64,000 nucleotides of DNA from Planctomycetota bacterium. Lineage in GTDB: Bacteria > Planctomycetota > Phycisphaerae > Phycisphaerales > UBA1924. Below are positions 21,368 through 60,108 of this stretch, in pieces; within the stretch, counting starts at the first letter, position 1, and each line of letters begins with the position of its first letter. The translations under genes and the position numbers were made by a program. A model generated the notes under the pieces. It searched no databases, had not been told where the DNA came from, and was given only the letters and a program-made list of their open reading frames with translations. The stretch is taken from positions 1 through 64,000 of the forward strand of contig JAUZRR010000024.1 of NCBI GenBank assembly GCA_030950285.1, in the 5' to 3' direction.

Positions 21368-21379
21368 CCTGAGAACGTC

Positions 21380-21925: not shown

Positions 21926-21979
21926 CTGCATGCCACCCAGACATCCGGCCGAGCGGTCGGGAAGGATTGGAAAAAAGCC

Positions 21980-23306: not shown

Positions 23307-23399
23307 ACAAAGAACTCCCGACCGCAATGTCCTGAGAGCCCATTTATGAAGTCGGGGCAAGTGAGGCGGCGATCACGTCGATCATAGATATGAAGCGGG

Positions 23400-26244: not shown

Positions 26245-26314
26245 GAAGTCGGTCGGACGCCGCGGACTGTGGGCCTGCATGGATCATTCATGCCGTGATG
26301 CCGTATCGTGTGGC

Positions 26315-41199: not shown

Positions 41200-42863
41200 T
41201 CGCGCGCGCAACAAACCCGGGCCGGCGGGGCAGCGCGATCCTTGCGGTGCTGTTGCTGCTGGTCATCGGCGTGGTGATCGCGGCGACGGTGCTCGTCGCG
41301 GCCGACGCGGCGGGAGAATCGGCCGAATCCGAACGGCACCGCGCCCAGGCCCGCGCGATGGCGTGGTCGGGGGTCCAGGCGGTGATGGCCGAGCTTTCGG
41401 AACAACGCGAGGACCTGCTCGACGGCCTTGATCCGCAGCTCACGCAGGAATGGTCGCTCTTTACACTCGACGACGGGACCCGGGGCATCGTGCGGCTGCT
41501 CGACCTTGACCCGCAGAGCGACGCGATGGTTGTCGCGGAGAACGCCAAGCTCGATATCAATGCCGCGACCGCCGAGATGCTCGCGGCGGTGCCGGGGTTG
41601 GACGGGATGCTCGCCGCACGCATCGTCGAGGCCCGCGATACGCAGCCGTTCTCGAGTGTCGCGGAGCTGTTGCGCGTGGAGGGGATCACGCCCGACTTGC
41701 TCTACGGCCCGCCGGATGTTGGCTGGGACGGCGCGGGCGGCGACTCGGTTGGTAGCCCCGATCTCTCGCCGGCGTCCCCGCTGGGCGTGGGGATGGACGG
41801 GCCGAGCGGGTTGGTCAGCTACCTGACGGTGTTTGCGTTCGATCCGAACGTGCAGGTCGGGTTTCAGAGTTCGCAGGAGCACCGCGGGAAGCTGCGTGTG
41901 AATCTGGACCAGGAGTGGTCGGACGATCTTGAGCGTGCCATCACCGAGCGGTTCGGTGCCGAGGCTGCCCAGGCGGTCAAACAGTTGATGGACGGCGGAC
42001 AGACCTTCGCCACCGACAGTGAACTGGCGGGTGTGCTGATCGACGTGGGGTTTGGCGTCGAGGGATGGGGCGAGTTGTTTGATGTGTTCACGACCACCGA
42101 CGACGAGTTTCTCGCGGGCCGGGTGGATGTAAACCGTGCCGGGCCGGAGGTCTTGGCGTGCGTGCCGGGGATCAGTCCGGAGCAGGCCGCGGCGATCGTT
42201 GATCGGCGGGAGACGCTGGACGCGCCCTCGCGGGCGATGCCGACGTGGTTGTTGCAGGAGGGGCTCATCGAGCCGGAAGATTACAAGGCGGCTGCCGATT
42301 GGATCACGGCTCGGTCGATGCAATGGCGCGTGCGTCTCGAAGTCGGCGTGATGGCTGGCGACGGGACTGGCGGCTTCGACGAGAGTGCGCCGATGACGAT
42401 GGACGATCTCATGGCGGGATGGGACGAGGCGCCGGACGGGGACAGATTGCAGCACCGCATGGTGGTGGAGGCGGTGATCGACGTGGCGTCCTCGAGGCCT
42501 CGGGTCGCGTACCTGCGCGAGGTGACGCTGCTCGACCCGGTGCTGGCGATGCTGCACGCCGAGGCGGCGCTCGATGAAGACGCCGAGCGGTTCGGGCCAG
42601 AGCCTGGGGGCTTTGATGAATCTGTCGCAGGGGCGATCGGCGATGGGTTTGGCGAAGCGCCTGACGATGGACTGGACTTCGGCGGCGGCTTTGACCTCGC
42701 ACCTCCACAATCTGGATTTGACCAACAACCCGCGGGCGACCTCGCGGGCACAAACGGCGATATGGAGCCGACCGACGACCCGGCCGAGCAGGCGGGCGAC
42801 TCGGGCGGCGCGGTCGATCGAAGGATCGGGCGTTGGACGACACGGAAGGCGGGCGGGTCATGA
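41196..42863 (+). CDS. gspK: GspK-like minor pseudopilin
   Basis: GRRGSAILAVLLLLVIGVVIAATVLVAAD; SAM/HhH-like DINAATAEMLAAVPGLDGMLAARIVEARD and VNRAGPEVLACVPGISPEQAAAIVDRRE. Confidence 0.85.
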   Translation: MIARATNPGRRGSAILAVLLLLVIGVVIAATVLVAADAAGESAESERHRAQARAMAWSGVQAVMAELSEQREDLLDGLDPQLTQEWSLFTLDDGTRGIVRLLDLDPQSDAMVVAENAKLDINAATAEMLAAVPGLDGMLAARIVEARDTQPFSSVAELLRVEGITPDLLYGPPDVGWDGAGGDSVGSPDLSPASPLGVGMDGPSGLVSYLTVFAFDPNVQVGFQSSQEHRGKLRVNLDQEWSDDLERAITERFGAEAAQAVKQLMDGGQTFATDSELAGVLIDVGFGVEGWGELFDVFTTTDDEFLAGRVDVNRAGPEVLACVPGISPEQAAAIVDRRETLDAPSRAMPTWLLQEGLIEPEDYKAAADWITARSMQWRVRLEVGVMAGDGTGGFDESAPMTMDDLMAGWDEAPDGDRLQHRMVVEAVIDVASSRPRVAYLREVTLLDPVLAMLHAEAALDEDAERFGPEPGGFDESVAGAIGDGFGEAPDDGLDFGGGFDLAPPQSGFDQQPAGDLAGTNGDMEPTDDPAEQAGDSGGAVDRRIGRWTTRKAGGS

Positions 42864-44455
42864 AGGTCAGAGGCAATCTGGTGGTGTTGTGTCATGAGGG
42901 CGAGCGGCTGAGCGCGGTGTGGGGCACCGTGCAGAAAGAGCGGGTTCGGATCAGGGGCTGGCTCGCCGCGGAGCACCCTGCGGGGATCGACGGCGGGGAC
43001 CCCGAAGCGATCGGGCGGTGGGTGCAGTCTGCGCTCAAAGAGGCCGGGTGCAACGCCAAAGCGTGCGTAATCGCGGTGCCCCGCGCCAGTGTTGTGCTCA
43101 AGCGGTTGACACTGCCGACGGTCTCGAACGGGCGTGATGGCGATCTTGCGGGGATGGTGCATCTGCAGTTGGCGAGGCAGCTCACGATGCCGTTGCAGGG
43201 CGCCGCGATCGACTACGTCCGGCTGAACCCGTCCGAGGATGGGGCCAAGACGGCCGAGTCCACCGAGATTCTCGCGGCGGCGTTGCCGGGTGATTATGTC
43301 GCCAACGCCCGGGGGATCGCCAAGAGCGCCAAGCTCCGTCTCCGCTCGGTGGCGCTTCGCGGGGAAGGATCGGCGACGCTCTTTGCCCAGCTCTCGTACA
43401 CACAGGACGGCCCGGTACTCGGGGTCTCGGTCACCGCACGGGGGGTCGAGCTCGGTATCGTCGCGGAGGGCCGCGTGGTGTTCTCGCGGGCGGTCGAGAT
43501 CCGTCCACCGACCGACGTGGACGGCTGGGGGGCGTTCACCCAACGCGTCGCGGTCGAAGCCAAGCGGACCCGCGTGGGGTATCGAGGCACGGGAGAATCG
43601 GCCGACATCGCGTGCATCGCGGTGCTGGGGGACGACGCGCTCGCAGAGTCGGTCGGCAAGACGCTCAGCGACGAGCTGGGCTTGCCATGGGAGACGGTGC
43701 GGTTCCCCAACGCGGTGGAGTTGCCTTCGGAGATGGACAGCCAGAACCGCGCGGTGCTTGCGCCGTTGATCGGGCTGATGGTCGGCGCGGCGATCGACCG
43801 CCCGACGTACGATTTTTCCAACCCTCGCAAAGCACCCGACACATCGGCGCAGCTCCGGCAGGCGGTGCTGGTCGCGGCGTTCGGGCTCATCATCTTCGGC
43901 GGCGGGGGATGGGTGATCGCGGACCAACAGCTGCGATCGCTCAACAGCAAGATCAAGGGCGCCAAGGAACAGAGCCGCACGCTCACCATGCAGTACGTTC
44001 GGCAGCTCCGCACCGAAGCACGGGTCAACCACATCGAGAAGCTCCGCGAGCCGAGCGTCGACTGGCTCGACCATGTGAACTATCTGTCCCAGACCCTCCC
44101 CCCGGCCGAGCTGGCGAAACTGGACTCGTTGGGCGGCATCGCAAGATCGAGCGTCGGGTTCTTTGCGCCCGGCGAGGAGGGCGGCTTCACCGAAGCGCAG
44201 TCGTTGCAGGGTGGGCAGTGGATCAAGAGTGGGGCGGTTGACCTGACCCTCGCGGGAACCGCGACGCGGGAGGTCGCCGACGAGTTGCGGGCCGATCTGG
44301 TCGCGGGCGAGTTGTACGAGCTGAGCACGCGGGGCGCCGACGTGGCGGGCAAGTTTGAGTATGTGCTCCGGGCATCCGGGAAAGAGCCCGCGCCGGAAGA
44401 CGAGGGCACCGCGACACCCGCCGAAACATCCGGCGAGCAGGGGGGTGAATCGTGA
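42860..44455 (+). CDS. GspL/PilM-PilN-like assembly protein
   Basis: Actin-like N-half (KACVIAVPRASVVLKRLTLPT; VLGVSVTARGVELGIVAEGRVVFSRAVEI), TM QAVLVAAFGLIIFGGGGWVIADQQ, coiled-coil C-half. Confidence 0.75.
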   Translation: MKVRGNLVVLCHEGERLSAVWGTVQKERVRIRGWLAAEHPAGIDGGDPEAIGRWVQSALKEAGCNAKACVIAVPRASVVLKRLTLPTVSNGRDGDLAGMVHLQLARQLTMPLQGAAIDYVRLNPSEDGAKTAESTEILAAALPGDYVANARGIAKSAKLRLRSVALRGEGSATLFAQLSYTQDGPVLGVSVTARGVELGIVAEGRVVFSRAVEIRPPTDVDGWGAFTQRVAVEAKRTRVGYRGTGESADIACIAVLGDDALAESVGKTLSDELGLPWETVRFPNAVELPSEMDSQNRAVLAPLIGLMVGAAIDRPTYDFSNPRKAPDTSAQLRQAVLVAAFGLIIFGGGGWVIADQQLRSLNSKIKGAKEQSRTLTMQYVRQLRTEARVNHIEKLREPSVDWLDHVNYLSQTLPPAELAKLDSLGGIARSSVGFFAPGEEGGFTEAQSLQGGQWIKSGAVDLTLAGTATREVADELRADLVAGELYELSTRGADVAGKFEYVLRASGKEPAPEDEGTATPAETSGEQGGES

Positions 44456-45498
44456 AGCACGCGAAGGTGATTCTCGTGGGGATCGTGATGATCGCGGCGA
44501 TGGTGATGGTGGGTGGGGCCGCGTACTACCTGCATTTTATGCGGCACAAAGGCGAGTTGCAGAAGCAACTGGCCGACTATCAGGACGGGATCACGCGCTT
44601 CCAGGACTGGCTCGACAGCCGTCCGTCGGTCGAGGACAAGCTCAACACGTTTGCCAGCGCCACGCTGGGCTTTGACGCCGAGGTGGTCGAATCGCGGTTC
44701 CGCTCGGGGCTCAACCGTCTGGCAGCGAGCGCCGGGCTTGTCAAGGACGACACGATCGTCAGCCCGCGCCGGACGCTGACCGCGGTCAAGAACCCCGCCG
44801 TGGCGCAGCGGGTGATGGAGTTTCGCAGGTATCAGAACGACGACCGGATTTCCGCGCCGGACCTTTACGTCATGGAAGCCGAGATCCGTGGCAGCGGGAC
44901 GCTCGAGGCGGCGGTGCGTTTGCTCGCCCTGGCGCAGACCCAGCCGTGGATCTGGAACGTGCGCGGGTTCAGCCTGACGCCGCAAGGCAACCAGAGCACG
45001 ATGTTCGACATCTCGATCGGCGTGACCACGGCGGTGCTCCCGGACCTCGCGCCGGCTGGGACCCTCGCTGCTGGGGATGCCCGGATCGAGGTCGAGCCGC
45101 CGCCGATTCTTGATCCTGATCCCGAGCACCTCGCCGCGACGACGGCGATCGTGCAGCGGAACGTCTTTGCGCCGCCCAAGCCAAAACCGGACACCCCCGA
45201 CGTCGTTGTGACCCAGGCGAGCCAGGATGTCCGCGAGCCCGATCCGGTCAAGCCCAAGACCTCGCCGCCCTACCACGAGTGGCGGCTCACCGGTGTCAGC
45301 GGTAGTCCGGGGCAAGGGATGCTCGCCTGGATGCAGAATGCCCGGACCGGAGCCGCGGTCATGCTGAGCCCCGGGGAGGGCGTTCTGGACGCCATGCTGG
45401 AGGAAGCCGACACAGAACAGGTGGTTTTTCGGATAGGGGAATCCCTGTACAGGGTCAGCCTGAACGAGACCCTTGCAGACCGGCACCTGCTCGAATAG
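44452..45498 (+). CDS. GspM/PilO-like protein with C-terminal GspC/PilP-like region
   Basis: N-terminal TM, PilO-like middle, then IVQRNVFAPPKPKP and a small C-terminal beta domain (YHEWRLTGVSG...AAVMLSPGEGV). Confidence 0.6.
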   Translation: MKHAKVILVGIVMIAAMVMVGGAAYYLHFMRHKGELQKQLADYQDGITRFQDWLDSRPSVEDKLNTFASATLGFDAEVVESRFRSGLNRLAASAGLVKDDTIVSPRRTLTAVKNPAVAQRVMEFRRYQNDDRISAPDLYVMEAEIRGSGTLEAAVRLLALAQTQPWIWNVRGFSLTPQGNQSTMFDISIGVTTAVLPDLAPAGTLAAGDARIEVEPPPILDPDPEHLAATTAIVQRNVFAPPKPKPDTPDVVVTQASQDVREPDPVKPKTSPPYHEWRLTGVSGSPGQGMLAWMQNARTGAAVMLSPGEGVLDAMLEEADTEQVVFRIGESLYRVSLNETLADRHLLE

Positions 45499-45521
45499 GC
45501 AGGCGGTCCCGAGATTTGGTA

Positions 45522-45533
45522 TAGTGCGCACTA
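45522..45533. promoter_or_regulatory. 12-bp palindrome overlapping a possible -10 box upstream of the giant secretin
   Basis: TAGTGCGCACTA within TTTGGTATAGTGCGCACTAG; TATAGT at 45520..45525. Confidence 0.4.
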
Positions 45534-45597
45534 GCTCACAGGCCGCGGAGTCGGCCGGGTCGTCCCAGAGGGTCGGCTTTTGAAAAAGGAGTTCCTC

Positions 45598-48500
45598 ATG
45601 CCTTCTCGCATCAGCTCTCGGGCTGTTGTCATCGCCGCCCTGCTCGCTGCGGCGGGTGCTGCGGCTTCGGCTTCGGCGTTCCAGGATTCCACCGCCGAGT
45701 CCGCCGAGCCCGCTGCGGCTCCGGTCTCCCAGCCCGCGGTTGACAGCCCCACCGAGCCTCCGAACCAGCCGCAACCGGTCGCGGACCCAAAGATCCGTTT
45801 CCAGTTCAAGGACACACCCTTCGAGATGGTGCTGGATTTCTTTGCGCGCGAGACCGGGCTGCCGGTGATCCGTGAGGCGCCCGCGCCCAAGGGGACGATG
45901 ACCTTCGTGGGCGGGACGGCGTACACCTTCGACGAGGCGCTCTCGATCCTGAACATGAATCTGATGCTGCACGGCGTATCGCTGCGGCGTGAGAACAACT
46001 TCCTCTATCTTGCGACCATCAAGGACTCGTTGCGCAAGCCCTCGAGGGTCGTGTCGGTTGACGATCTGCCCGACGATATCACTCCCGACATGATCGTCAC
46101 GATGACGATCCCGCTCGATAACACGCGGGCGACGCAGGTTGCCGAGCAGATCAAGCCGCTGATCGGTGAGTACGGCGGGATCACGCCGATTGATGCACAG
46201 AACATGCTGATTCTGGTCGAGTCTGCGGCGCAGTGCGAGCGGATCGCGTCGCTGATCCGCTCGATCGACTCGGTTCGGCCGGTCGACTCGGAGTTCAAGG
46301 TCTTCAAGCTGAGTCACAGCAAAGCCGAGGACGTTGTCGAAGCGCTCAAGGGCCTTGTCGGGCAGCGGATGCAGCAGATATTTATCGACAAGGACGGCAA
46401 CCGCACCGTCGCTGAAGAGATCGACGTTGCCGGGCTCAACATCCAGCCCGATCCTCGCACCAACTCGGTCATCGTGGTCGGTTCGCACAACCGGATCGAG
46501 ACGGTCGAGCAGTTGATCCAGGTGCTCGACGTGCCGGGTGGCGGGTTTGGCGGCGAGCAGCAGATGGTGACGTTTGTGCTCGAAACCATCACGCCCGAGC
46601 AGGCCGCCAGGACGCTGAACTCGCTGTTTTCCTCGGTCCCCAAGGAGTCGAAACCGACGATTGTCCCGCTGTCGGATGTCGGGAAAGTAACGATCATTGG
46701 TGCGCAGGCGTTGGTGTTGCAAGCGACCGCGCTGGTCGGCGAGATCGACCCCTCGGCCGGGACTGGCGAGCCCCGCGATGCGCAGCCCGAGACCGTGGTC
46801 CGGGCGCTCGCGCTCGAGCACATCACCCCGGCGCAGGCCGAGCAGATTGTGCGGCGGATGCTGACGGTTCGGCAGCAGCGGGTGGTTCGCTACAGCGCCG
46901 CGCCCGACGGAACCGGGTTCCTGGTCTCCGGGCCGACCGCGGACGTGGCGACCTTTGAGCAACTGCTCAAGAGCCTTGATCGGCCGGCGACCGCGAAAAC
47001 CGAAGTTCGTGTGGTGCAGATCGATTCGCCGGACCCGCAATCGATCGTTGATCGCGCGCTCGAGCTGGACACGCTGACCGACGAGGGAACCGAAGAGCCC
47101 GTCTCGGTGACGGTCGATGCCGAATCTCGCCGCGCAACGATCGTCGGCTCGTCGGCTGCGATCACCCGGTTTGAGCGCAGGCTCAACGAGGTCGAGAAAC
47201 GGGTGATCGCGCGGAGCGTCTCGCGTTCTTACCAGCTCACACTTGCCAGGCCGAGCGAGCTCGCGCCGAGGCTGACCCGGCTCGCCCGTCCGCTGCTGAC
47301 GCCCGACGACGGGACGCCGTATGTCGTGCCGACCTTTGAGCCGCTCGACGAGCTCGACACGCTGATCGTGCGGGCCGAGGCCGAGCAGTTCGCTGTCATC
47401 GAAGAGCTCATCGCCCAGTTCGACGCTGAGGAACCTGTTCGGCGTGATTTCCGTGTGATTCGTGTGCGTTCTGGTGATCCGGCAGCGATTCGTGAACGCA
47501 CGCTTGCGATGCTCGACGAGATGAACAAGGGGCTTGACGAGGACAATCGTGTCGAGGTCGAGGTCCAGGTTGATGCTGCGTCGGGGAGTTTGCTGGTCTG
47601 GGCCGAGAGCCGGAGTATGCAGCAGTTCAACAGCGTGCTGCAACAGGTGCAGCAGCTGGTGCCACCGGCGCGTTCAACGCGCGTGCTCGACGTGCGGAAC
47701 ATCGAGGCGGCCGAGATTCTTGCGCCGCTTCAGCAGCTGCTTGCGTCTGCCGATTCGATCGACCCGGCGCGGGCGATCCCCGAGCCGACGATCACGGTGC
47801 TCGACCGGACCAACTCGCTGGTGGTGACCGCCGAGGCGGCGCAGCACCAACTGGTGACGCAGATGGTGCAGCGTCTGGATCGGCCCAACCCGGCCGACCT
47901 GCCGCCGATGCGTTTGTTGCAGCTGCGGGCGGCGGACGCGACGAACGTGGCGCGTCTTTTGCAGGAGCGCTACGACAGCCGCCCGTTGACCGATCGCACG
48001 GCTCGCCCTGTCAAAATCAAGGCCGAGGCGCAAACAAACACGCTGATTGTGACGGCGCACGAAGAGCTCTTCGAGGATGTAAAGGCGCAGATCGACATCC
48101 TGAATCAGGAAGGGCAGACAGAGCCCGAGCGGACGACCAAGCTCTTCCCGCTCAAGGTCGCAAAGGCGATGGACGTGGCGTCAGCGATGGACAAGCTCTA
48201 CCCCGAGCCTCCGATGCCCGCCGATCGGTTCGGGCGACCGATGCCTTGGCTTCGGGAGAAGAAAGATGTCAATGTCTCGGCCGATCCGTCGAGCAACTCG
48301 CTGATCTTCGATGCCCCGACCGATCGCATTCCTGATCTTGAGGAGCTTGCTGCGCAGCTTGACCGTGTCGAGGTCCCGCCGCAGGCCGAGCTGCGGACGT
48401 TCCGTGTTGTCAAGGGTGATCTGAACACCATCACGTCGACGCTGTCCGGGCTCGCGAGGCAGGGCGCGCTCTCGTCGCCAGCCCAGCCGGGCAAGCAGGC

Positions 48501-51500
48501 GGTGAAGGTGATGATCGAGGCCGAGCCGAAGTCGAGCACGCTGATCGTCGCGGGTGATGCGTTTACCTTTGAGAAGGTCGAGGAGATTCTGCTGAGTCTT
48601 TCGGCGGTGCCTGTCGAGCGTTCACTGCGGATCATCCCGATCTCGAACACACCCGCGTCGACCGTGCGCGACCGCGCGATGGCGATTTATGACGCGCAGG
48701 TCGCTGGATTGCCCGAGAGCGAACCGGTCGAGGTTACGGTTGACGACAACTCCAACTCGCTTGAGGTGGTGGGCTCGCTCGACGGGCTGGCGCGATTCTC
48801 AGCGATCATCGACCAGTTGCAACGGCAAACTGGCTCTGCCCGTGAGGTGCGTCTGATCGAGCTCAAGCTTGCCAAGGTTACCGACATCATCTCGTTTCTC
48901 AATGAGATGGTTGCTGCCAATCAGGCGATCACGATGCAGGGTGGCCCGGCACCCGTCTTCGAGCCGATCGAGGCGACGAACTCCCTGCTTGTCGCGGCTC
49001 AACCGAGCCAGCTGGTGATTATCGAACAACTCGTCCGCTCGATTGATGCCCAGCAAGCCGGGGAGCGTCCTCCTTTGCGGATTCTGCGGTTGCGCACGAC
49101 GGACGCGAGCGGGCTCGCCGTGGTTTTGCAGCGTTCGTACGCGGGTCGCCCGGTCGAGGAGCGGACGAAGAAGCCGGTTGATATCCAGGCGGACGCCGCG
49201 ACGAACACGCTGATTATCTCGGCCCATCCCGAGGTGCTTCCCGAGATCGAGGAGATCGTCAATCAGCTCAACGAGACGCAGGCGATGGATGCCGAGGGAC
49301 GGGAGATCCGTATCTTCCCGCTCTCGTGGGCGCGGGCCGAGGAGCTGGCAAAGACGATCGACGAGATGTTCCCCGAGCCGCCGATGCCGTACGACTCGCG
49401 CGGGCGTCCGATGCCCCACCTTCGGCAGCCCAAGGAGGTCTTCGTTCGTGCCGATCGTGCGACCAACTCGCTGATCGTGGACGCCCCTGCCCAGCGGCTC
49501 GCGGGGTTTGAGCAGATCGTGCAGAGCCTCGATCAACAGAACATGGGCGACGATCTGGAGATCCGGACCTATCGCATCGAGCGTGCGGACCTCGCGATGG
49601 TCGCGCGCACGCTGGAGGATCTGTCGTCGAGTGGTGCGCTGCGAGCCAGCAGCCGCACTCCGGTGACGATCAACACCGAGCCGGCGACCAGGACGCTGGT
49701 GGTGAGCGGCCCGACGGAGGTCTTCAAGCACGTCGAGGAGGTGCTTGATTCGCTGGGGCAGGCCCCGGACCGACCCGAGACGTCGATGAAGATGTACCCG
49801 CTGAAGTTTGCGCGGGCCGAGCAGCTCCAGGTGTTGCTGACCGACCTGCTCGCGACACGATTGCGCGACGAGCAGGAGCGTGCAGGCAGGGCGTCCGACG
49901 CGGTCGAGACGTTGCTCGATGTCGCGTCGCACGGGCCGTCGAATACGCTCATTATCACGGCTCCGGCGTCGATTCAGCAGATCGCCGAGGAGCTGATCAA
50001 GTCGCTCGACACCGAGGCCGCGGCGGCGGGGCGGCGGACGATCCGCGTGCTGCCGCTGACTTACGCCGATGCGGCAGAGGTTGCCAAGACGCTCACGCAA
50101 ACGGTGCCGAAGATGGACCTGACCGGCGGGGGTGATGTGACGATCATCTCGGCAACCGGCTCGAACGCGATCATTCTCGCCGGCGCGAGCGCCGATCTCA
50201 AGCGGGTGGAAGCGTTGATCGAGCCGCTCGATGTGCGGCCGGACGACCCCAAGGAAATGGGAGTCGAGACATTCAAGCTGGTGCACGCCGACGCGGCTCG
50301 GATCGCGGAGACCGTGCAGAGCTTGCTCGTCGAACAGCAGGAGACCGACCCGCGGATTCTTGCGTACCAGATCCGGTACTCGCGGAACCCGAATCTGTTT
50401 AAGAAGCCGAGTATCCATGTCGAAGCCGAGCCGCGGACCAACGCCCTGATTGTGTCGGCACCCGCCGCGACGCTCGAGCTTGCTAAGACGATCATCGAGC
50501 GACTGGACCAGCCGGCCGAGCTGCTCGATCGCAAGGTCGCGACCTTTACACCCAGCAAGGCGGACCCCAGGCGGCTGGTGACGTTGGTCTCGAAGATCGT
50601 GGACGAGACGCAGCCTCAGGAGCGGCACGGGCTCGAGCTGACCGCCGAGGCGGGGACTCGGTCTGTGGTTGCGATCGGTAGCGCGGCGCAGATCGCCGAG
50701 GCGATGCGTCTGCTCGCCGAGTTTGACGACCGGGCATTCTCGCTTCCCGATGTCGAGTTGACGGTGGTTGATCTCGACCACGCCGACGCGACCGCGGTTG
50801 CGCGGATGGTCGAGGCGTTGGCGTCGGATCGTTCGCGTTGGCCGCAGGCGTTGCGTGACGCCGAGCAGGCAGGCATCGCGGTCGCGGCACCGCGGATTAC
50901 CGCTGACAGTGAGACGAATCGGCTGGTCATCAGCGCGCCGGGTCCGCTCGCGCCGGTCATTCGCGAGCTGGTCGCGACGCTTGATCAGCCATCCGGGCGC
51001 GAGGTCCAGGTGCGGCTGTTTGCGCTGCGGCAGGGCTCTGCTGAGTCGGTCGCGGCTGCGCTTCAGGTCGCGTTTGCCGCGGGGGTCAACCCGGGCGAAC
51101 CGCGCGCCGTGGCGACCGCCGAGCCCACAAGCAACACGGTGATTGTTTCCGGCACCGCCGAGCGGGTCGCGCAGGCCGAGTCGCTGGTGCGGGCGATGGA
51201 CGAGACGGTCGAGCCCAACGGGATGGGTGTCCGCACGATCACGCTCAAGTACGCACGGGCCGAGTCGCTCGCGCCGATTTTGGAGCAACTTCTCAAGCAG
51301 GAATCGGCGATCGATCAGATCCCCGAATGGTCGCGATGGCAGTACCTGCTGCGGAACCCGACGTCGAATGAGGGTGTTGTGCGGGTTGCGGCGGAGACTC
51401 GGCTCAACGCGATTGTGGTCGCTGCGTCGCTCGACGTGATGCAACTGGCCGAGCAGATCGTCGCCGAGCTCGACGTGCCGCCGAACGGGCCGTCCGGGGG

Positions 51501-54500
51501 TGGGCGTCTGGTCCGTGTCATCCCGCTGCTCAACGCCGACGCGACGGTGCTCGCGGCAAATATCGACGCGGTGTTCGAGGAGGACGCGTCGCTCGAAACG
51601 CCGCCGGTGGTGCGGGTCGACCCCGAGGGCAACGCGCTTATCGTGCGTGCAACCGTGGCGCAGATGAAGATCATCGGGCAACTGGCGAGCGATCTTGATG
51701 CGGCGACGATCAACAGTGCGCGGCAGCTGCGCATGATCCCGGTCGATCGCTCCAGAGCGGACGCGGCGCTCATGGCGGCAACGCTCCAGCGGCTGCTCGA
51801 GCAGCAGGGCGGGATCAAGGTCGAGATCATCTCGACCGACGAGCTGCTCGGCGGCAAGAGCAACACGCCCAAACCAAGCGGTGAGGCGACGCCGCCCCGT
51901 CCCTTTCCGGGAGGACTGATTCCCGAAGTGCTCACCCCGCGAGAGCTTGTCGCGCTCAGTGCGATCGCCATCTCCCAGCCCGAACCTCCGCGGCAACCCG
52001 AGGCCGTCGCAAAGGATGACGATGACCTCCCGGTTGTTCGAATCGCGGTCGATACAGCGAGTAACACGCTCGTCGTGATCGGATCTCCCCGGATGACCGA
52101 ACGGATCGCGGCGCTGGCGGCACAGCTCGAGAATCAGATGCCCGCCGAGGCGTCCGCGGTGCGGATCGTGACGCTCCCTCAAGGCGCAGACGCCGCCGCG
52201 ATTGCGCAGATCGTTTCGCAGACGATCCGGCAGGTTGGGAACGCCAGCGCAAACAACCCGGGCGGGTTCACCAGCCGTGTCGCGGTGCAGGCCGATCCGT
52301 CGGGCAGCGCGGTGATTGTCTGGGCAAACCAGACCGACTTCGATTCGATCGGTGCGCTGATCGCGTCGGTGTCGAGCCTCGGTGCTGATGTTTCGCTGAC
52401 GGTCAAGAACTACCAGCTTGCAAATATCACCGCCGACCGCGCCAAGCAGGCGATCCAGGACCTCTTTGCCGGCAGTCCGCGCGGGCGGCAGGCTCGGCGG
52501 GTGCGGGGGCTTGACCTGACCGTTGAATCGGCGAACGGCGATGCGTTCAGTGCGGTCATTGATCCGAAAGATATCCGCATCACCGCGACCCGAGGCAGCG
52601 CGAGCGTGCTTGTTGCTGCCCCGGCCGAGGCGATGCGTCTGATTGACTCGCTGATCGGGCTGCTTGACCAGAGTCCGGTCTCCGATCGGCTTGCGATCCG
52701 GCGGTACGAACTGGCCAATGCTCGCGCGACCGATCTCTCCAGAACATTGCAGACGCTCTTTGACGCGCAACGGCAAGGGCCGCTTGTCAACGAGATGGCC
52801 CGGGCGCGGTTTGTCGCCGACGACCGGACCAACTCGCTGCTCGTGACCGCGTCGGCCGACCAGCACGATGAAATACAGCAGTTGCTCGCGAGCACCGATT
52901 CTGAACAGGCCGACGACGGGCTCGAGCTGGCGATCATCCGGCTCGATCAGGCCAACCCGCAGGCAACGCAACGGATACTCGAACAGGTCATCATCGGGCG
53001 CGACGCAGGCAAACGCGAGCGTGTACAGATCTCGGCCGAACGGGACTCGGGCGTGCTCGTGGTCCGTGCCGAGCCGGAGGATATCGCGGAGATTCGGCGA
53101 ATCGTCGCCGAGCTCGACACCGCCGAAACCGCGGGCCTTCCGGTGCGGTCGATCAAGCTGGAACAGGCCGATGCCAGCGAGGTCGCCCGTTCGTTGTCCG
53201 CATTCTTTCGTGACCGCCAGCAGGCGATGCGGCGGGCGGGTCTGCGCACGACCAGGCAAGGTGTTGCGATCACTGGCGATCGGCGCAGCGGCACACTGAT
53301 CGTTGCGGCGAGCGATGCCGACTTTGCACAGATCACCGATCTTGTGCAGCAGTACGACACGGAATCCTCGGCGATCGCGGAACTGAAGTTTGAGATCATT
53401 CGGCTTGAACACGCTCGCGTGGGCGATCTTGAGGACACGCTCCGCAGTCTGGCAAATGAGCTGCAGTACGAACGCATGTACGGCGGTCGAAACCGCAGTC
53501 AGCCCTCGCCGCAAGAAGACAAGCTGCTGCTCGAATTTAACGAGCGGCTCAACTCGGTTGTGGTCATGGGGCAGGGCGAGACCATGGAGGTGATGAAGAA
53601 CATCATCGCCAAGCTCGACGTGCCGTTCTCGGAGATGACCGCGCGGGTTGTCAAGATCGTTCCGATCAGCCAGGGCGATCCGCAGACAATCGCGAGGGTG
53701 GTCGAGAGCGCGATGGACTCGGGCGGGAGCGACGACTTCTGGTACTGGCCGCCGCGGAGTGATCCGGACAAGGTGACCGTCGAGGTCGACGCCCGCAGTC
53801 GGGCGATCATCCTGATCGGGCCGGGCGCCAAGGTCGAGCAAGCGGTGGCGTACGCCGAGCAGCTCGACACGGTGTCGGGGCGTCCCAACGCGGTGGTTGA
53901 TTCGATCCCGCTGCAGCACGCCGAAGCACGCCGCGCCGCGCAGAACCTCAACACCTTCTTCCGCCAGCGGGCCCGCGCCGAGGGCTCGCCGCCCGAGGCG
54001 GTGTCGATCATCGGGTCGCAGGACGGCAACCTGCTCTTTGTGACCGCCGACGAGGACAGCCTCGCGCTCGTGCGGACGTTGGTTGCCGAGCTCGACGTGC
54101 CCGAGATCGGCGAGGACCGTCAGATCGAGATCGTGTACCTCCAGAACGGCACCGCGGGCAATGTTTCGCAGGCCGTCCGGTCGATGTTCCCGCCGACCGG
54201 GCGCGCCGACGAGCGGGTGCTCGTGACGCCGCAGCCGGAGAACGATTCGCTGTTGGTTTCCGCCCCGCCTCAACGGATGGCGAGTGTGCTCGCGTTGGTC
54301 AAGGAACTCGACGCTTCGCCGCGACCCGAGGACGTGAATATCGCTTCGGTGCCGTTGGTCAACGCCCGGGCGTTCGACGTTGCCGACTCGCTCCGTGCGG
54401 CGTTGCCCTCATCGATCAAAATCACGATCACTCCGGTTCCGAGGTCAAACACGTTGCTGCTGACGGGCTCGGATGAAACGATTGCGCTGGTCACCGAGCA

Positions 54501-57500
54501 GATCAGCCGTCTTGATATCAAGCCCGAGATCGAGTTGCAGACGTTCCGTCGAATCAAGCTCGAGCACGTGCTGGCGAGCGATGTGAACCTCACGCTCAGC
54601 ACGTTGCTGCGTGACCTGCCCAAGGGAGCGGGCGAACCGAGCCCGAAGGTGGATTATTCGCCCAACGAGAACACCATCAGCGTGCTCGCGACGCCCGAGC
54701 AGATGTCCCGCATCGAGCAGATCATCCGCGAGTTGGACGTGACGAGCGGTGCGGACCGTCACACCGAGTTTGTGCGGATGGAGTTTGCCGATGCCGTGCA
54801 GACTGCCAATGCGCTCAAAATGTTCTACGGCCGCTTCGCGCAGGAGGCCAAGACGTTCGCCGCTCGAAACGTCTCGATCGTCGCTGACGAGGCGAGCAAC
54901 TCGCTGGTGATTAGCGCCGCCGACAGCGAGTGGGAGAGCATCCTTGCGTTGCTTGAGAAGCTCGACACGCCCGACTACGACAGCTCGCGTCAGCTTGTGG
55001 TCATTCCGCTCAAGCACGCGGACGCTGCGAGTGTGGCCCGTGCGCTCAACGAGGGCTTCCGCCAGAGACTCCAGGATGAGCTCTCCCGCGAGCGCGCGCG
55101 GCAACAGCAGAATCAACCCCGCGCCAACAGCCGCGACCCGCGCGACGGGTTCTTCAACCCGCCCGTGCTTGTTGATGCTGAGGGGGTGCCCTCGGTCTCG
55201 GCAGAGACCCAGACCAACTCGCTGATCGTCTCGGCCGGCCGCAAGGAGCTCGAGCGGATCGAACGGATTGTCGAGCAGCTCGACGTACCCGAGTTCGTCA
55301 AGCTCCCCCAGCCGGTGGTCATCCCGATCGAGCGTGGACGCGCCAGTGCAATCGCTGCGGGGATATCGCAGATGTTCGCCACCCAATCAGGAAGCCCCGC
55401 CGGGCCGCGTTCGGCACGGATCTTCGGCGACGATCTTTCCAACACGCTCATCGTGCGCGCCGACGAGGACGATCTGATCCAGATCTGGTCGCTCGTCCGC
55501 GAGTTGCAGTCGCAGAACGAACAGACCATCGCCCCCCGGCTGGTACGGCTGGAGACCATCCCCGCGACACGGCTGCGCCAGCTTGTGCAGACCGCGTTTG
55601 CCCCGGTTGCTCAGCGGCTCGGCGAGCCGTTCGCGGTCGATGTCGAACGCACCAGCAACTCGCTGGTCATCACCGCCTCGCCCGGGCTCTTTGAGCAGGT
55701 CAAGACATTCGTCCAGCAACTCGACAGCCCATCAGATGACGGGGGGAACGGCGACGCACAAGGTAACGCACAGCCAGACAACGACGAGGCTGTCGCTGGC
55801 TCGCCGCTGACGCCCGGCATGCTGATCGTCCCGGTCAGCAACAACGCCCCCCAGGCAATCCGCACGATGCTCGAGCAGATGGGCGTCACCCGGCCCGTCC
55901 CGGACGATCGTTTCGGGATTGTTTCTGAGCCGGTGACGCTGGTAGAGATCACCAGCCGGGCGGCGATCGGCGTCATCGGCAATGACCGCGATGCCGCGAT
56001 AGTGGCGGCTCTGATCCGCACGCTTGACGCCCAGCGCGGCGAGATTTCGCAGGAGATGGCGGTGGTGCCTCTCAAGCTCGCCAACGCCGGCAGCATCGTC
56101 TCGACACTCCAGGAGATGCTCAATCCGGCGAATCAGGATGTCAAGACGGGGCCGGCGCAGGCGGTCCAGGAGCACATCCGTCGGCTCCGGCTGACGCGAG
56201 GCTTCGGGCGCGCCGAGCTCTCCCTCGACCTGACGCAACCGATCCGGCTTATCCCGGTGATCGAGTCGAACGCGGTGATCGTCGGCTCGACGCCCGGGAA
56301 CGTCGCCGCGGTCGCCGATCTCATCAAGAGCCTCGACACGCTGCCGGTGGGTGACGCGATTGTCGTGCGGATCTTCCCGCTCGAAAACGCCGCAGCCAAC
56401 CGGATCAAGGCGATTGTCGACGAGCTCTTCAGCCAGGGCGAAACGCTTCGCCGGCTTCCCGGCACGAAACGGCAGGGGCTGCCCCCGACAGCAACCGGGC
56501 AAGCACTCGCCGGCGAGATCGCGGTGTCGGTCGACGACCGCACCAACGCGTTGCTTGTGGCCGGTCGGGAAGAAGCGGTCGCGCTCGTCGAGGTTCTGAT
56601 CAGAGACCTGGACGCCGATACCGTCGGCAACTGGGTCGAGCCGGCGTTGATCCCGCTCGAGCACGCCGACGCGCGCACGATCGCGGACATCATCGACCGG
56701 GTCATCATCCAGGGTTCACGTTCAACGCCCGAAGCCGACGGGTTGCAACGTCAGGTTGCACGGCTCCGCATCCTTGTCTCGGGTGGTGATCCAACCGATG
56801 CCAGCGCGCGCATCGAGTCGGACCTGTTCGTCCCGCTCTCCAGCCTCGTCGTCGAGGCAGAGCCCGACACAAACACGCTGATTGTGGTGGGCACCCCCAA
56901 GAACATCGAGGTGGTGCGTGAGCTGATCGCTTCGCTCGATGTGGAACTCACGTCGGCGGGCAACGCGGTCCGGTTCTTCCCGCTCGAGTTTGCCGCGGCC
57001 GACCGGGTGAGCGCAGTGCTGACCGATGTCTTCGACCAGCGTGAAGCAGCCGGCGTGCTCCGTCCGGAGGATCGTTTGATCGCTTCGCCCGACGCCCGGA
57101 CCAACACGCTGATCATTTCGACCAGTGCGAGATCGTTCGAGATCGTGGAGACGCTGCTGACCTCACTCGACGCCGAGGACAGCAACTTTACGGTCGGGCT
57201 GCATGTGCTGCCCGTGCCCGGCGCGGATGTCGTCACCCTCGCGGGCAACCTGCAAAGGCTCATGGACGAACGGATCGAATCCACGCGCAGATCGGGCGGG
57301 GTGGACTCGCCGATGGACACGTTCAGCGTGCTTGCAGACCCGGCGAACAGCCTGCTCATCCTCGCGTGCAGCGAAGAAAACCTGCAACTCGTCAAGGACC
57401 TGGTCAAGACGATTCAGGAGGGCGCGACGATCATGTCCAGCGGTGGACGGATGGAACTCATCGAGCTCCAGCACGCTCGGGCGGAGGAAGTCGCCGACTC

Positions 57501-59592
57501 GATCCGTGAGGTCTACGTCGATCGCGAGAACGAACGGCGTGGGCAGAACACCGTGAGTGTGACCGCCGAAGCCCGGCTCAACGCGCTCATCGTCCGGGGC
57601 AGCGACGCCGATATCGACGCGATCCTCGATCTGGTTGACCGGTTCGACAAGAGCGAGGTGCTGAGCGTGCAGGACGTGCGGCGGTTTGAGCTGACGTCCG
57701 CCAACTCGCTCGAAGTCGTGAGGCTCCTCGAGAGTGTGCTCGCCGGGCAACCTCTGGCAGGGTCGGTCAGGCAGGGTCGGGCGACGCGACTCCGTTACCT
57801 GCGGCAGGAGGTGACCGACGTGTTCGGAAACCGTATCCCGGGCGGCGTCACCGAGGCCGAGGTGGACGACTTTATCCGCGAGCAGGTCCGCCTTACCGCC
57901 GACCTGCGGACCAACTCGGTGCTGGTTTCTGCGCCGACGTCGATTGTTGATCTCATCGAGTCGATCCTTCTTGATCTCGACGGTTCCACCGCCGGGTCGC
58001 GAGAGATCGAGGCGTTCCGCTTGGTCAACGCCGACGCCAGGGCGATGGCCGAGGTCCTGCGTGACCTCTTCAATCTGCGGGTGCAGGGTGACACGCTGGT
58101 GCTTATCCCCACGGGACAACGGCAAGGCGCCGACGAGGATCCCGACGGGCTGAACTCCACTTCGGTGACCGCCGTCCCCAACGAGCGTCAGGAGCTCTCG
58201 ATCACCATCGATGCCCGCACCAACACGCTGCTGGTCTCGGGCACGGAGGAGTACCTCGATCTCGTCCGCAAAGTGGTTTTGGACCTCGACGTGATCGAGG
58301 CAAACGAGCGCGAGCAGCTCGTCTTTCACCTGACCAACGCCAAAGCGAAGGACCTTGAGGTCACGCTGCAGGGCTACTTCGACACCGAGGCAACGACTAT
58401 CCAGGCGGCGCTCGGTGGAGCGGATGGCGTGGCGGGTTCGGTCTCCCGCCAGCTCGAGCAGGAGGTCACCGTCGTCGGCGATGAGAAGAGCAACAAGCTG
58501 CTGATCTCGGCTTCACCCCGATACATCAATGCTGTCGAGCAGATCGTGATGGAACTCGACGCCGCTCCGCCGCAGGTGCAGATTCAGGTGTTGATCGCCG
58601 AGGTGACGCTCGACGACGAGAACTCCTGGGGTGCGGACATCAACGTCGGCGGCCTGACCGGGCTCGGGCCGGACGCGTTTCAACTCGGATCGTTCGCGGC
58701 CGGGGGGGCGCTCTCGAGCGCCTTAGGCACCGCCAACCTCTCGGTTTCGAGCGTGGACTTTGAGCTGATGGTCCGGGCGCTCGAAGTGCAGGGCAAGCTC
58801 GAGGTGCTGAGCCGTCCCTCGGTGACGGTCAAGAACAACGAGGCGGCCCGGATGCAGGTCGGTGAGAATATCGGTGTGCCGGGCAACACCACACAGAGCG
58901 GCGGCGGGAACGTCACCACGGGCGTGACCTATCAGGATGTCGGCATCATCCTTGAAGTGACCCCGACGATCGGCGCCGATGGGTTTGTCCAGCTGGAAAT
59001 CATGCCCGAGATCTCTGCGCTGACCAGCCGAACCACGCAGGTGAGCGAGTCGGTGCAGGCTCCGATCATCACCCGGCGTTCGGTGCAAACGACGGTCAGC
59101 GTGATGAACGGCCAGACCGTCGTCATCGGCGGCCTGATCCAGACGACGAAGGAGAACCGCGAGTGGAAGGTGCCGATCATTGGTGACATCCCGCTCCTCG
59201 GGCTGCCCTTCCGATCGATGAAGGAGCAGAACGTGAAGACGGAACTGCTCGTGATTCTCACGCCGCACATCATTCCGGGTGGAAAGCCGGCGGTTGAGCG
59301 TTATCGCAACCTGACCGACCGCGCGATCGGCGAGTTGTCGGATCCGAGCCGGATCATTGATCGGGTCGGGCCGGTCAACGCCAACCCGGTTCTCGCGCCA
59401 ACGCCCAAGAGAGTGACCCCCGGGAGCGGCGCGGACAGCGCGATCGACTTCCAGAACGCCCCGCGGATCCGAGCCAAGCGGGCGACGGGTGAAGAGGGCG
59501 TCGAAGGTTCCTCTGCCGATGAGATCGACTGGTCCGCGGTGACTCGAATAGACGCCAAACGCTCGGACGCAGCCGAAGACGGGCAGGAGTAG
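45598..59592 (+). CDS. gspD: Giant secretin (GspD/PilQ superfamily) with about 50 N1-type domains
   Basis: ATG preceded by AAAGGAG; signal peptide MPSRISSRAVVIAALLAAAGAAASASA; N0-like IRFQFKDTPFEMVLDFFARETGLPVI; array of ~83-aa units ending TNSLIV.A...LD; C-terminal VQIQVLIAEVTL...VLSRPSVTVKNNEAARMQVGENI...TVVIGGLIQTTKENREWKVPIIGDIPLLGLPFRS...ELLVILTPHII. Confidence 0.95.
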   Translation: MPSRISSRAVVIAALLAAAGAAASASAFQDSTAESAEPAAAPVSQPAVDSPTEPPNQPQPVADPKIRFQFKDTPFEMVLDFFARETGLPVIREAPAPKGTMTFVGGTAYTFDEALSILNMNLMLHGVSLRRENNFLYLATIKDSLRKPSRVVSVDDLPDDITPDMIVTMTIPLDNTRATQVAEQIKPLIGEYGGITPIDAQNMLILVESAAQCERIASLIRSIDSVRPVDSEFKVFKLSHSKAEDVVEALKGLVGQRMQQIFIDKDGNRTVAEEIDVAGLNIQPDPRTNSVIVVGSHNRIETVEQLIQVLDVPGGGFGGEQQMVTFVLETITPEQAARTLNSLFSSVPKESKPTIVPLSDVGKVTIIGAQALVLQATALVGEIDPSAGTGEPRDAQPETVVRALALEHITPAQAEQIVRRMLTVRQQRVVRYSAAPDGTGFLVSGPTADVATFEQLLKSLDRPATAKTEVRVVQIDSPDPQSIVDRALELDTLTDEGTEEPVSVTVDAESRRATIVGSSAAITRFERRLNEVEKRVIARSVSRSYQLTLARPSELAPRLTRLARPLLTPDDGTPYVVPTFEPLDELDTLIVRAEAEQFAVIEELIAQFDAEEPVRRDFRVIRVRSGDPAAIRERTLAMLDEMNKGLDEDNRVEVEVQVDAASGSLLVWAESRSMQQFNSVLQQVQQLVPPARSTRVLDVRNIEAAEILAPLQQLLASADSIDPARAIPEPTITVLDRTNSLVVTAEAAQHQLVTQMVQRLDRPNPADLPPMRLLQLRAADATNVARLLQERYDSRPLTDRTARPVKIKAEAQTNTLIVTAHEELFEDVKAQIDILNQEGQTEPERTTKLFPLKVAKAMDVASAMDKLYPEPPMPADRFGRPMPWLREKKDVNVSADPSSNSLIFDAPTDRIPDLEELAAQLDRVEVPPQAELRTFRVVKGDLNTITSTLSGLARQGALSSPAQPGKQAVKVMIEAEPKSSTLIVAGDAFTFEKVEEILLSLSAVPVERSLRIIPISNTPASTVRDRAMAIYDAQVAGLPESEPVEVTVDDNSNSLEVVGSLDGLARFSAIIDQLQRQTGSAREVRLIELKLAKVTDIISFLNEMVAANQAITMQGGPAPVFEPIEATNSLLVAAQPSQLVIIEQLVRSIDAQQAGERPPLRILRLRTTDASGLAVVLQRSYAGRPVEERTKKPVDIQADAATNTLIISAHPEVLPEIEEIVNQLNETQAMDAEGREIRIFPLSWARAEELAKTIDEMFPEPPMPYDSRGRPMPHLRQPKEVFVRADRATNSLIVDAPAQRLAGFEQIVQSLDQQNMGDDLEIRTYRIERADLAMVARTLEDLSSSGALRASSRTPVTINTEPATRTLVVSGPTEVFKHVEEVLDSLGQAPDRPETSMKMYPLKFARAEQLQVLLTDLLATRLRDEQERAGRASDAVETLLDVASHGPSNTLIITAPASIQQIAEELIKSLDTEAAAAGRRTIRVLPLTYADAAEVAKTLTQTVPKMDLTGGGDVTIISATGSNAIILAGASADLKRVEALIEPLDVRPDDPKEMGVETFKLVHADAARIAETVQSLLVEQQETDPRILAYQIRYSRNPNLFKKPSIHVEAEPRTNALIVSAPAATLELAKTIIERLDQPAELLDRKVATFTPSKADPRRLVTLVSKIVDETQPQERHGLELTAEAGTRSVVAIGSAAQIAEAMRLLAEFDDRAFSLPDVELTVVDLDHADATAVARMVEALASDRSRWPQALRDAEQAGIAVAAPRITADSETNRLVISAPGPLAPVIRELVATLDQPSGREVQVRLFALRQGSAESVAAALQVAFAAGVNPGEPRAVATAEPTSNTVIVSGTAERVAQAESLVRAMDETVEPNGMGVRTITLKYARAESLAPILEQLLKQESAIDQIPEWSRWQYLLRNPTSNEGVVRVAAETRLNAIVVAASLDVMQLAEQIVAELDVPPNGPSGGGRLVRVIPLLNADATVLAANIDAVFEEDASLETPPVVRVDPEGNALIVRATVAQMKIIGQLASDLDAATINSARQLRMIPVDRSRADAALMAATLQRLLEQQGGIKVEIISTDELLGGKSNTPKPSGEATPPRPFPGGLIPEVLTPRELVALSAIAISQPEPPRQPEAVAKDDDDLPVVRIAVDTASNTLVVIGSPRMTERIAALAAQLENQMPAEASAVRIVTLPQGADAAAIAQIVSQTIRQVGNASANNPGGFTSRVAVQADPSGSAVIVWANQTDFDSIGALIASVSSLGADVSLTVKNYQLANITADRAKQAIQDLFAGSPRGRQARRVRGLDLTVESANGDAFSAVIDPKDIRITATRGSASVLVAAPAEAMRLIDSLIGLLDQSPVSDRLAIRRYELANARATDLSRTLQTLFDAQRQGPLVNEMARARFVADDRTNSLLVTASADQHDEIQQLLASTDSEQADDGLELAIIRLDQANPQATQRILEQVIIGRDAGKRERVQISAERDSGVLVVRAEPEDIAEIRRIVAELDTAETAGLPVRSIKLEQADASEVARSLSAFFRDRQQAMRRAGLRTTRQGVAITGDRRSGTLIVAASDADFAQITDLVQQYDTESSAIAELKFEIIRLEHARVGDLEDTLRSLANELQYERMYGGRNRSQPSPQEDKLLLEFNERLNSVVVMGQGETMEVMKNIIAKLDVPFSEMTARVVKIVPISQGDPQTIARVVESAMDSGGSDDFWYWPPRSDPDKVTVEVDARSRAIILIGPGAKVEQAVAYAEQLDTVSGRPNAVVDSIPLQHAEARRAAQNLNTFFRQRARAEGSPPEAVSIIGSQDGNLLFVTADEDSLALVRTLVAELDVPEIGEDRQIEIVYLQNGTAGNVSQAVRSMFPPTGRADERVLVTPQPENDSLLVSAPPQRMASVLALVKELDASPRPEDVNIASVPLVNARAFDVADSLRAALPSSIKITITPVPRSNTLLLTGSDETIALVTEQISRLDIKPEIELQTFRRIKLEHVLASDVNLTLSTLLRDLPKGAGEPSPKVDYSPNENTISVLATPEQMSRIEQIIRELDVTSGADRHTEFVRMEFADAVQTANALKMFYGRFAQEAKTFAARNVSIVADEASNSLVISAADSEWESILALLEKLDTPDYDSSRQLVVIPLKHADAASVARALNEGFRQRLQDELSRERARQQQNQPRANSRDPRDGFFNPPVLVDAEGVPSVSAETQTNSLIVSAGRKELERIERIVEQLDVPEFVKLPQPVVIPIERGRASAIAAGISQMFATQSGSPAGPRSARIFGDDLSNTLIVRADEDDLIQIWSLVRELQSQNEQTIAPRLVRLETIPATRLRQLVQTAFAPVAQRLGEPFAVDVERTSNSLVITASPGLFEQVKTFVQQLDSPSDDGGNGDAQGNAQPDNDEAVAGSPLTPGMLIVPVSNNAPQAIRTMLEQMGVTRPVPDDRFGIVSEPVTLVEITSRAAIGVIGNDRDAAIVAALIRTLDAQRGEISQEMAVVPLKLANAGSIVSTLQEMLNPANQDVKTGPAQAVQEHIRRLRLTRGFGRAELSLDLTQPIRLIPVIESNAVIVGSTPGNVAAVADLIKSLDTLPVGDAIVVRIFPLENAAANRIKAIVDELFSQGETLRRLPGTKRQGLPPTATGQALAGEIAVSVDDRTNALLVAGREEAVALVEVLIRDLDADTVGNWVEPALIPLEHADARTIADIIDRVIIQGSRSTPEADGLQRQVARLRILVSGGDPTDASARIESDLFVPLSSLVVEAEPDTNTLIVVGTPKNIEVVRELIASLDVELTSAGNAVRFFPLEFAAADRVSAVLTDVFDQREAAGVLRPEDRLIASPDARTNTLIISTSARSFEIVETLLTSLDAEDSNFTVGLHVLPVPGADVVTLAGNLQRLMDERIESTRRSGGVDSPMDTFSVLADPANSLLILACSEENLQLVKDLVKTIQEGATIMSSGGRMELIELQHARAEEVADSIREVYVDRENERRGQNTVSVTAEARLNALIVRGSDADIDAILDLVDRFDKSEVLSVQDVRRFELTSANSLEVVRLLESVLAGQPLAGSVRQGRATRLRYLRQEVTDVFGNRIPGGVTEAEVDDFIREQVRLTADLRTNSVLVSAPTSIVDLIESILLDLDGSTAGSREIEAFRLVNADARAMAEVLRDLFNLRVQGDTLVLIPTGQRQGADEDPDGLNSTSVTAVPNERQELSITIDARTNTLLVSGTEEYLDLVRKVVLDLDVIEANEREQLVFHLTNAKAKDLEVTLQGYFDTEATTIQAALGGADGVAGSVSRQLEQEVTVVGDEKSNKLLISASPRYINAVEQIVMELDAAPPQVQIQVLIAEVTLDDENSWGADINVGGLTGLGPDAFQLGSFAAGGALSSALGTANLSVSSVDFELMVRALEVQGKLEVLSRPSVTVKNNEAARMQVGENIGVPGNTTQSGGGNVTTGVTYQDVGIILEVTPTIGADGFVQLEIMPEISALTSRTTQVSESVQAPIITRRSVQTTVSVMNGQTVVIGGLIQTTKENREWKVPIIGDIPLLGLPFRSMKEQNVKTELLVILTPHIIPGGKPAVERYRNLTDRAIGELSDPSRIIDRVGPVNANPVLAPTPKRVTPGSGADSAIDFQNAPRIRAKRATGEEGVEGSSADEIDWSAVTRIDAKRSDAAEDGQE
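46090..58560 (+). repeat. Protein-level tandem array of secretin N1-type domains inside gspD
   Basis: About 50 units counted by eye, average ~250 nt each; divergent at DNA level. Confidence 0.85.
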
Positions 59593-59601
59593 GATGGCAC
59601 C

Positions 59602-60108
59602 ATGATCCTTTCTCGACGGGCACAATGCGAACGGTACATGCGGCTCGTTCCGGTGCTCGCGGCGCTCGCGGTGAGCGGGTGCGTGGCCGATGGTTCGGGG
59701 CACAAACCGATCCGCCCTCCGGCCGACCTCCGTACGGACCTGGTCACGGTTGCGACGTATCCGCTGATCGACAACGACAACAACGGGTACCCGGACACGA
59801 TCCCGATTGTGGTCTATCTGTGGGACAACCGGTACCCGCTCCCGATGTGGGGCGAGGGGGGATTGCGGTTTGAACTCCGTGATGCCGAGGAACGGTTGAT
59901 CGCCGAGTGGGACGTCCCGCAGGAGTTGTTGGCTTCGAGCCGGCGGCGTGACCAGGTCGGCGCGTCCCATGTGCTGACGCTCGATATCCGAGAAGCCACG
60001 ACCGACGTGCTGCCGTTGACCAACGCCAGGCTGTCTGCCGAGTACACCGGCCAGGACGGGACTGTCGCCAAGACGGCACGCCCTCTGGGTATCCAGATCG
60101 GCTCTTAA
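59602..60108 (+). CDS. Putative lipoprotein downstream of the secretin
   Basis: LVPVLAALAVSGC lipobox; alternative ATG at 59638; 10 bp after the secretin stop. Confidence 0.65.
   Translation: MILSRRAQCERYMRLVPVLAALAVSGCVADGSGHKPIRPPADLRTDLVTVATYPLIDNDNNGYPDTIPIVVYLWDNRYPLPMWGEGGLRFELRDAEERLIAEWDVPQELLASSRRRDQVGASHVLTLDIREATTDVLPLTNARLSAEYTGQDGTVAKTARPLGIQIGS

Follow-up and report, generated by a model that had tools for sequence, protein, structure and literature searches.

Secretins are among the best-studied channels of the cell envelope. They commonly comprise 600-900 aa, and the number of their N domains is held nearly fixed at three or four, with six in Thermus, an ordinary GspD possessing N0 and three N domains within 600-800 aa. 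The locus described here, located in a Planctomycetota bacterium of the order Phycisphaerales (GenBank assembly GCA_030950285.1, contig JAUZRR010000024.1), lies far outside the size of an ordinary GspD: the window, i.e. the whole analysed stretch of 64,000 nucleotides, encodes a secretin of 4,664 aa with 50 N1-type units. This raises the questions whether such a protein is a genuine secretin, to which machine it belongs, and what its length would imply for the envelope that it has to cross.

Domain architecture and operon of the giant secretin

The frame of the giant secretin is unbroken from its ATG, upstream of which stands the ribosome-binding-like AAAAAGGAG, to its stop codon (Table 1). 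GC content by codon position amounts to 0.68/0.44/0.82, a coding signature that is even over the whole length, and the reverse-strand ORFs at 48799-54273 and 44080-47643 inside the giant are read as shadows of this GC-rich coding frame. A signal peptide opens the protein and is followed by a GspD-type N0 domain, a tandem array of 50 N1-type (Secretin_N) domains and finally the secretin core, which is of the T2SS type. Pfam profiles delineate Secretin_N in 41 stretches, with E=0 and 1249 bits for the whole protein, and a single Secretin domain (E=3.8e-47) between aa 4394 and 4559, and an HMM trained on the array itself recognizes exactly 50 units of 83 aa each, the weakest with an i-E of 4.3e-10. 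In phmmer searches, aa 69-311 align with the N0-N1-N2 structures of GspD (5wq7, E=2.5e-12; 3ezj, E=4.3e-6). A mid-array stretch of 1,367 aa aligns with consecutive GspD N domains, and the core finds its top structure match in the T2SS GspD XcpQ (5wln, E=5.7e-41), with PilQ and others ranking after. These searches establish the gene and its domains, and they bear out what a sequence-only reading had proposed for the locus, namely an unbroken 14-kb ORF encoding an N0-like domain, about 50 N1-type units of about 83 aa that are indeed Secretin_N-like, and a normal secretin core.

Table 1. Positions of the giant secretin, its subdivisions and the surrounding operon within the window
Feature	Position	Strand	Evidence or remark
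gspF	37197..38384	+	PF00482 E=9e-49; TIGR02120 top NCBIfam match, under its cut-off
gspG, major pseudopilin	38578..39081	+	PF08334 E=1e-20
gspH-like minor pseudopilin	39134..39901	+	sequence match and synteny
gspI-like minor pseudopilin	39931..40422	+	sequence match and synteny
gspJ-like minor pseudopilin	40459..41199	+	sequence match and synteny
gspK-like, 561 aa, helix-hairpin-helix	41178..42863	+	PF03934, NF037980
gspL/pilM-like	42833..44455	+	PF11104, TIGR01175
GspM-like inner-membrane protein, possible C-terminal GspC-type HR domain	44452..45498	+	weak NF041515 match, E=0.0013
Giant secretin (GspD-like)	45598..59592	+	4,664 aa, 504 kDa
N0 domain, aa about 69-150	45802..46047	+	phmmer 5wq7, 3ezj; AlphaFold and Foldseek: XcpQ N012, GspC-GspD complex 3oss
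50-unit N1-type (Secretin_N) array, aa 170-4322	46105..58563	+	linkers 3-31 aa, median 7
Unit 1	46105..46272	+	top match for N1 of ordinary 3-unit secretins (L117, L106)
Units 8-11, block duplication, copy one	47671..48600	+	
Units 13-16, block duplication, copy two	48841..49761	+	lag of 5 units
Units 42-50, nine core-proximal	56053..58563	+	colinear in Verrucomicrobial giants
Secretin beta-barrel core	58777..59274	+	PF00263
Lipoprotein, lipobox VSGC, directly 3' of the giant	59638..60108	+	conserved; candidate assembly factor or pilotin

The giant gene lies in an operon of general secretion genes, and most of the relatives share its arrangement F-G-(H,I,J)-K-L-(M/C)-D, with some minor genes undetected and the arrangement altered in G034. 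The presence of F-G-H-I-J-K-L and an M/C-like gene upstream and of a lipoprotein gene downstream establishes the giant as the secretin of a T2SS-like machine. The lipoprotein matches no Pfam family, and a homologue is encoded just downstream of the giant in all seven Phycisphaerales relatives for which the downstream region was fetched (G123, G073, G313, G009, G027, G034 and G003). The GspM-like label of gene 44452 reflects its position and the look of its sequence, and neither PDB nor Pfam profile searches returned a match for the putative GspC-type domain of its product, HR being the domain through which GspC binds N0. None of the inner-membrane partners encoded in the operon is obviously enlarged. 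A gspE gene is absent from the giant operon of the window, the genome harbours 13 matches to the GspE family PF00437, and G003, G014, G029 and G612 have an E-like gene adjacent to the giant cluster. Near the giants of Verrucomicrobiota, F, G, K and L are partly present and synteny is weaker.

The giant resembles the GspD of T2SS in its N0, its N1-type domains, its secretin core and its operon of gspF-L and a GspM-like gene, and GspD is its top match in both sequence and fold. It differs from GspD in having 50 instead of 3 N1-type domains and 4,664 instead of about 650 aa, as well as in a system that lacks a recognised pilotin and features a divergent M/C partner. Our verdict is that the giant represents a T2SS secretin in an extreme and conserved form. 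The earlier suggestion of an undescribed system accordingly holds for the giant secretin, of which a search of the open-access literature returned no description (an account elsewhere is possible), but not for the machine itself, which is T2SS-like.

Several further features of the neighbourhood were observed. The helix-hairpin-helix stretch of the GspK-like protein is ComEA-like. A phosphate-binding-like periplasmic protein (PBP_like_2) is encoded beside the giant operon at 60285-61247 and is kept there in several relatives. In addition, the window contains a second type IV filament-like cluster at 17965-27784, in which no secretin is recognisable and which comprises a T2SSE ATPase, T2SSF and several pilin-like proteins, followed by unassigned genes.

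Distribution, conservation and growth of the array

A giant-type core (cut-off E<=1e-90) was found in 142 of 300 genomes of the Phycisphaerales, the order of the window. In 112 of these matches the open frame spans 3,109-5,088 aa (median 4,484); many of the shorter matches are owed to assembly fragmentation, and a small number represent ordinary secretins of 721-787 aa. Intact giants are encoded on the single-contig chromosomes of G123 (4,634 aa, 50 units) and G313 (4,856 aa, 51 units), and the two-contig genome G073 encodes one of 5,073 aa with 50 units. Among the matches listed for 295 genomes over the Planctomycetota, long giant-type frames occur only in the order of the window and all others reach at most about 1,500 aa; samples taken from other planctomycetes likewise contained no such giants. 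Outside this phylum, giants reaching 5,155 aa and 56 units are present in 31 of 116 genomes of one order of Verrucomicrobiota, which includes Pedosphaera, and in none of 242 other, evenly drawn Verrucomicrobiota genomes. Altogether, the unit number of giants ranges from 25-31 up to 56.

Secretins of intermediate length occur in other planctomycetes, single-contig genomes among them (L118-L121, L159, L160 and, of family f80, L153-L157 and L162). They comprise proteins of 1,240-1,440 aa with 7-9 units and those of family f80 with 2,135-2,331 aa, in which 8-11 units are recognised and further diverged ones are possible. In the class drawn around G317 (other planctomycetes, by inference Planctomycetia), the secretins of 40 genomes do not exceed 2,331 aa, and those counted have 7-11 recognisable units. 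These medium-long proteins share the extra N1-type units with the giants, which have far more of them, and those of 1,326-1,437 aa form a separate, well-supported branch of the core tree. In this context, the giants mark the extreme of a broader, graded trend in secretin length.

The array is old, and each of its units has an identity of its own. All 50 units of the window are one-to-one reciprocal best matches, in order, with those of L017, L014 and L022, as are 47 of the 50 with L009, and shorter arrays miss whole blocks: units 8-12 in L023, 18-21 in L012, and 7-12, 18-21, 28-29 and 33-34 in L025. Compared with a same-genus relative (73% identity), every one of the 50 units is under purifying selection, with NG86 dN/dS values of 0.05-0.44; the corresponding values are 0.21 for the whole giant, 0.17 for the core and 0.48 for the C-terminal tail. 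Unit-by-unit colinearity across genera together with purifying selection indicates that each position of the array matters. Moreover, the linkers have a median of 6-8 aa in all giants, so that adjacent units must lie close to each other, as in GspD.

These data also bear on the reality of the gene. In a few metagenome assemblies the array is split by a frame break or an in-frame stop (L028, L058, L059, L060, L084 and L102), as would be seen if the giant were an artefact of assembly or annotation. Yet the like open frame is intact in more than 100 independent genomes, the single-contig chromosomes included, and this, in conjunction with the per-unit dN/dS values, excludes chance, assembly error and a pseudogene, leaving the artefact with a negligible probability. 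The giant gene, its family membership and its conservation are hence near certain. The split or frameshifted arrays were also considered as a true two-gene form, which was discarded as they were judged to be draft-assembly breaks. Lone stops in otherwise intact giant arrays, at about 4457 in L060 and about 4394 in L102, are either assembly errors or signs of decaying genes.

A history of whole-block duplication is established by the array itself. In the window, units 8-11 and 13-16 constitute a block duplication and units 19 and 23 are close copies, and the Verrucomicrobial arrays hold a four-unit block in triplicate. According to per-unit HMMs, for which as many as 44 arrays of Phycisphaerales and 17 of Verrucomicrobia were used, window units 42-50 match the Verrucomicrobial units 31, 32, 33, 34, 37, 41, 42, 43 and 44 in this order, units 24/25 to 27/28 show a weaker cross-phylum match, and most other N-terminal units find their best match in a paralogue of their own lineage. 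Outside the nine shared units, growth was thus largely separate in the two phyla and proceeded via duplication of 4- and 5-unit blocks. The bridging lineages L018, L067, L073, L083 and L090 contain an intermediate set of units, from which it follows that the common ancestor probably had some 20 units already, before both orders enlarged their arrays separately. Unit 1 resembles N1 of the ordinary 3-unit relatives L117 and L106, and the last unit resembles N3, in L117 only; since the array ends keep N0/N1-like and N3-like identities, growth was internal.

Neutral repeat growth, in which block duplications accumulated without benefit, would accord with the clear duplications of 4 and 5 units and with the differing array sizes. 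Nevertheless, it is very improbable, given that all 50 units are under purifying selection, that orthology extends unit by unit over genera, that two orders grew their arrays largely independently and that about half of the Phycisphaerales keep giants. Common core-proximal units combined with a mostly separate N-terminal growth in the two orders suggest recurrent selection for length.

In the core tree, the giants adjoin ordinary 3-unit secretins of Lentisphaeria, Sumerlaeota and Phycisphaerae, and the number of origins is left undecided by this tree. The Phycisphaerae sequences L018 and L070 group with the Verrucomicrobial giants, which makes a transfer between phyla possible. The array of L070, a MAG labelled Phycisphaeraceae, is of the Verrucomicrobial type nearly throughout, reflecting either inter-phylum transfer or a mis-binned contig.

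Predicted structure and the proposed tube

AlphaFold was run on units 43-50 with the core (31 sequences) and on N0 with units 1-9 (14 sequences). The models consist of repeated beta-alpha-beta-beta-alpha domains, with a pLDDT of about 75-90 for most units, and a beta-rich core. For both models T2SS secretins rank top in the PDB by Foldseek, the N0 model resembling XcpQ N012 and 3oss. The modelling of unit windows proposed in the sequence-only reading thus yielded well-folded individual domains, but it left their mutual orientation unfixed (pTM 0.37 and 0.39).

With moderate confidence, we favour a T2SS-like GspD whose N-domain series, ordinarily three or four domains long, has grown to N0 plus 50 N1-type domains and whose units would stack as a long tube. 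Stacked rings forming a vestibule of more than 100 nm are the best inference from known secretins, and as N0 and the core lie at opposite ends, the array should extend between the inner-membrane platform and the outer membrane. As to oligomer, stacking, length, cargo and the reason for the length, we infer the following arrangement. In analogy to other secretins, 12-15 copies of the giant would assemble, their C-terminal cores forming the gate in the outer membrane and each layer of N domains one ring. The rings would stack into a long periplasmic tube of roughly 100-200 nm (51 rings of 2-4 nm each), and 15 copies would weigh about 7.6 MDa. The N0 end would dock on the inner-membrane platform (L, M/C-like), a GspG pseudopilus or folded cargo would run inside the tube, and sites with distant membranes, e.g. 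deep inner-membrane invaginations, would be bridged without loss of cargo to the periplasm. A continuous protein-walled tube of about 50 rings, more than 100 nm in length and with a mass of several megadaltons, spanning the envelope in Phycisphaerales as well as in the Verrucomicrobial order, is a tentative proposition, which we consider nearly as likely as not.

To our knowledge, a stack of 50 ring layers has no precedent, six rings being the largest number in the literature compared. PilQ of Thermus, which has these six stacked N rings, is 35 nm in length and covers the greater part of a wide periplasm (PMC5745081, PMC4463427). PulD, in which the N domains number four, measures 20 nm in all (PMC6882859), and N0-N1-N2 of XcpQ have a height of 8 nm (PMC5646246). 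The PilQ of Thermus thermophilus, whose rings are read as spanning this wide periplasm, is akin to the giant in its extra N domains. It differs in its 757 aa, its six N rings and its context of type IV pili and DNA uptake, the giant being of the T2SS type with 51 N domains.

Another possibility is that the long array of this secretin is not straight: the core-proximal rings alone (e.g. the conserved last nine) would be stacked, and the remainder would fold back or act as a flexible sleeve or spring that tracks a variable distance between the membranes. In favour of this arrangement, both phyla agree most strictly in the nine core-proximal units, the N-terminal part differs by whole blocks, AlphaFold gives no confident geometry between units, and the same genome possesses envelope conduits of ordinary length. 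However, all N-terminal units are under purifying selection, colinear within the order and joined by short linkers, and the retention of N0 and an N1-like unit at the far end implies that this end docks at the inner membrane. We therefore consider it unlikely, albeit of appreciable weight.

Alternatively, the array could mainly serve as a tether or scaffold joining outer and inner membrane, with secretion being secondary, like the press-stud crateriform contacts of Planctopirus. Such crateriform complexes of the planctomycete outer membrane reach the cell membrane and bear fibres, and in the description consulted no component of them is named (PMC5394234). Since they are known from Planctopirus and Gemmata, since the class of these two, inferred to be that of G317, is devoid of giants in the 40 genomes mentioned above, and since the giant is located in a full pseudopilin operon, this role is improbable.

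Envelope context of the giants

The idea that the giant suits an enlarged planctomycete periplasm has been weakened by the modest length of the secretins in the G317 class and by the channels of ordinary length in the giant's own genome. This genome also encodes secretins of 711, 861 and 936 aa as well as TolC-type proteins of mostly 488-694 aa, and consequently its periplasm cannot be wide everywhere. A uniformly wide periplasm as the full reason for the length was for this reason set aside. TamB (PF04357), whose length was considered as a separate gauge of how wide the periplasm is, was detected in none of 41 genomes of the window's order, the control genomes being positive. Invaginated regions or special sites at which the membranes lie far apart are possible. 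Invaginated envelopes are documented for Planctopirus and Gemmata (PMC5394234), yet the samples from other planctomycetes, to which these two belong, contained no such giants, which also speaks against a wide periplasm as the simple reason. Ribosome-free compartments are on record for Verrucomicrobia, strain Ellin514 among them (PMC2647929).

If the tube of about 50 rings exists, no known secretin channel would come close to its length, and it would suggest that the membranes of these bacteria are organised in a way that has not yet been seen in them. The giants predict tubes of about 100 nm in the disputed envelope of Planctomycetes and Verrucomicrobia, a prediction that can be checked directly. 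Irrespective of the tube, the existence of a conserved class whose members have 25-56 N1-type domains demonstrates that a secretin can lengthen about tenfold, and it provides a natural length series for testing N-rings as a ruler of membrane distance.
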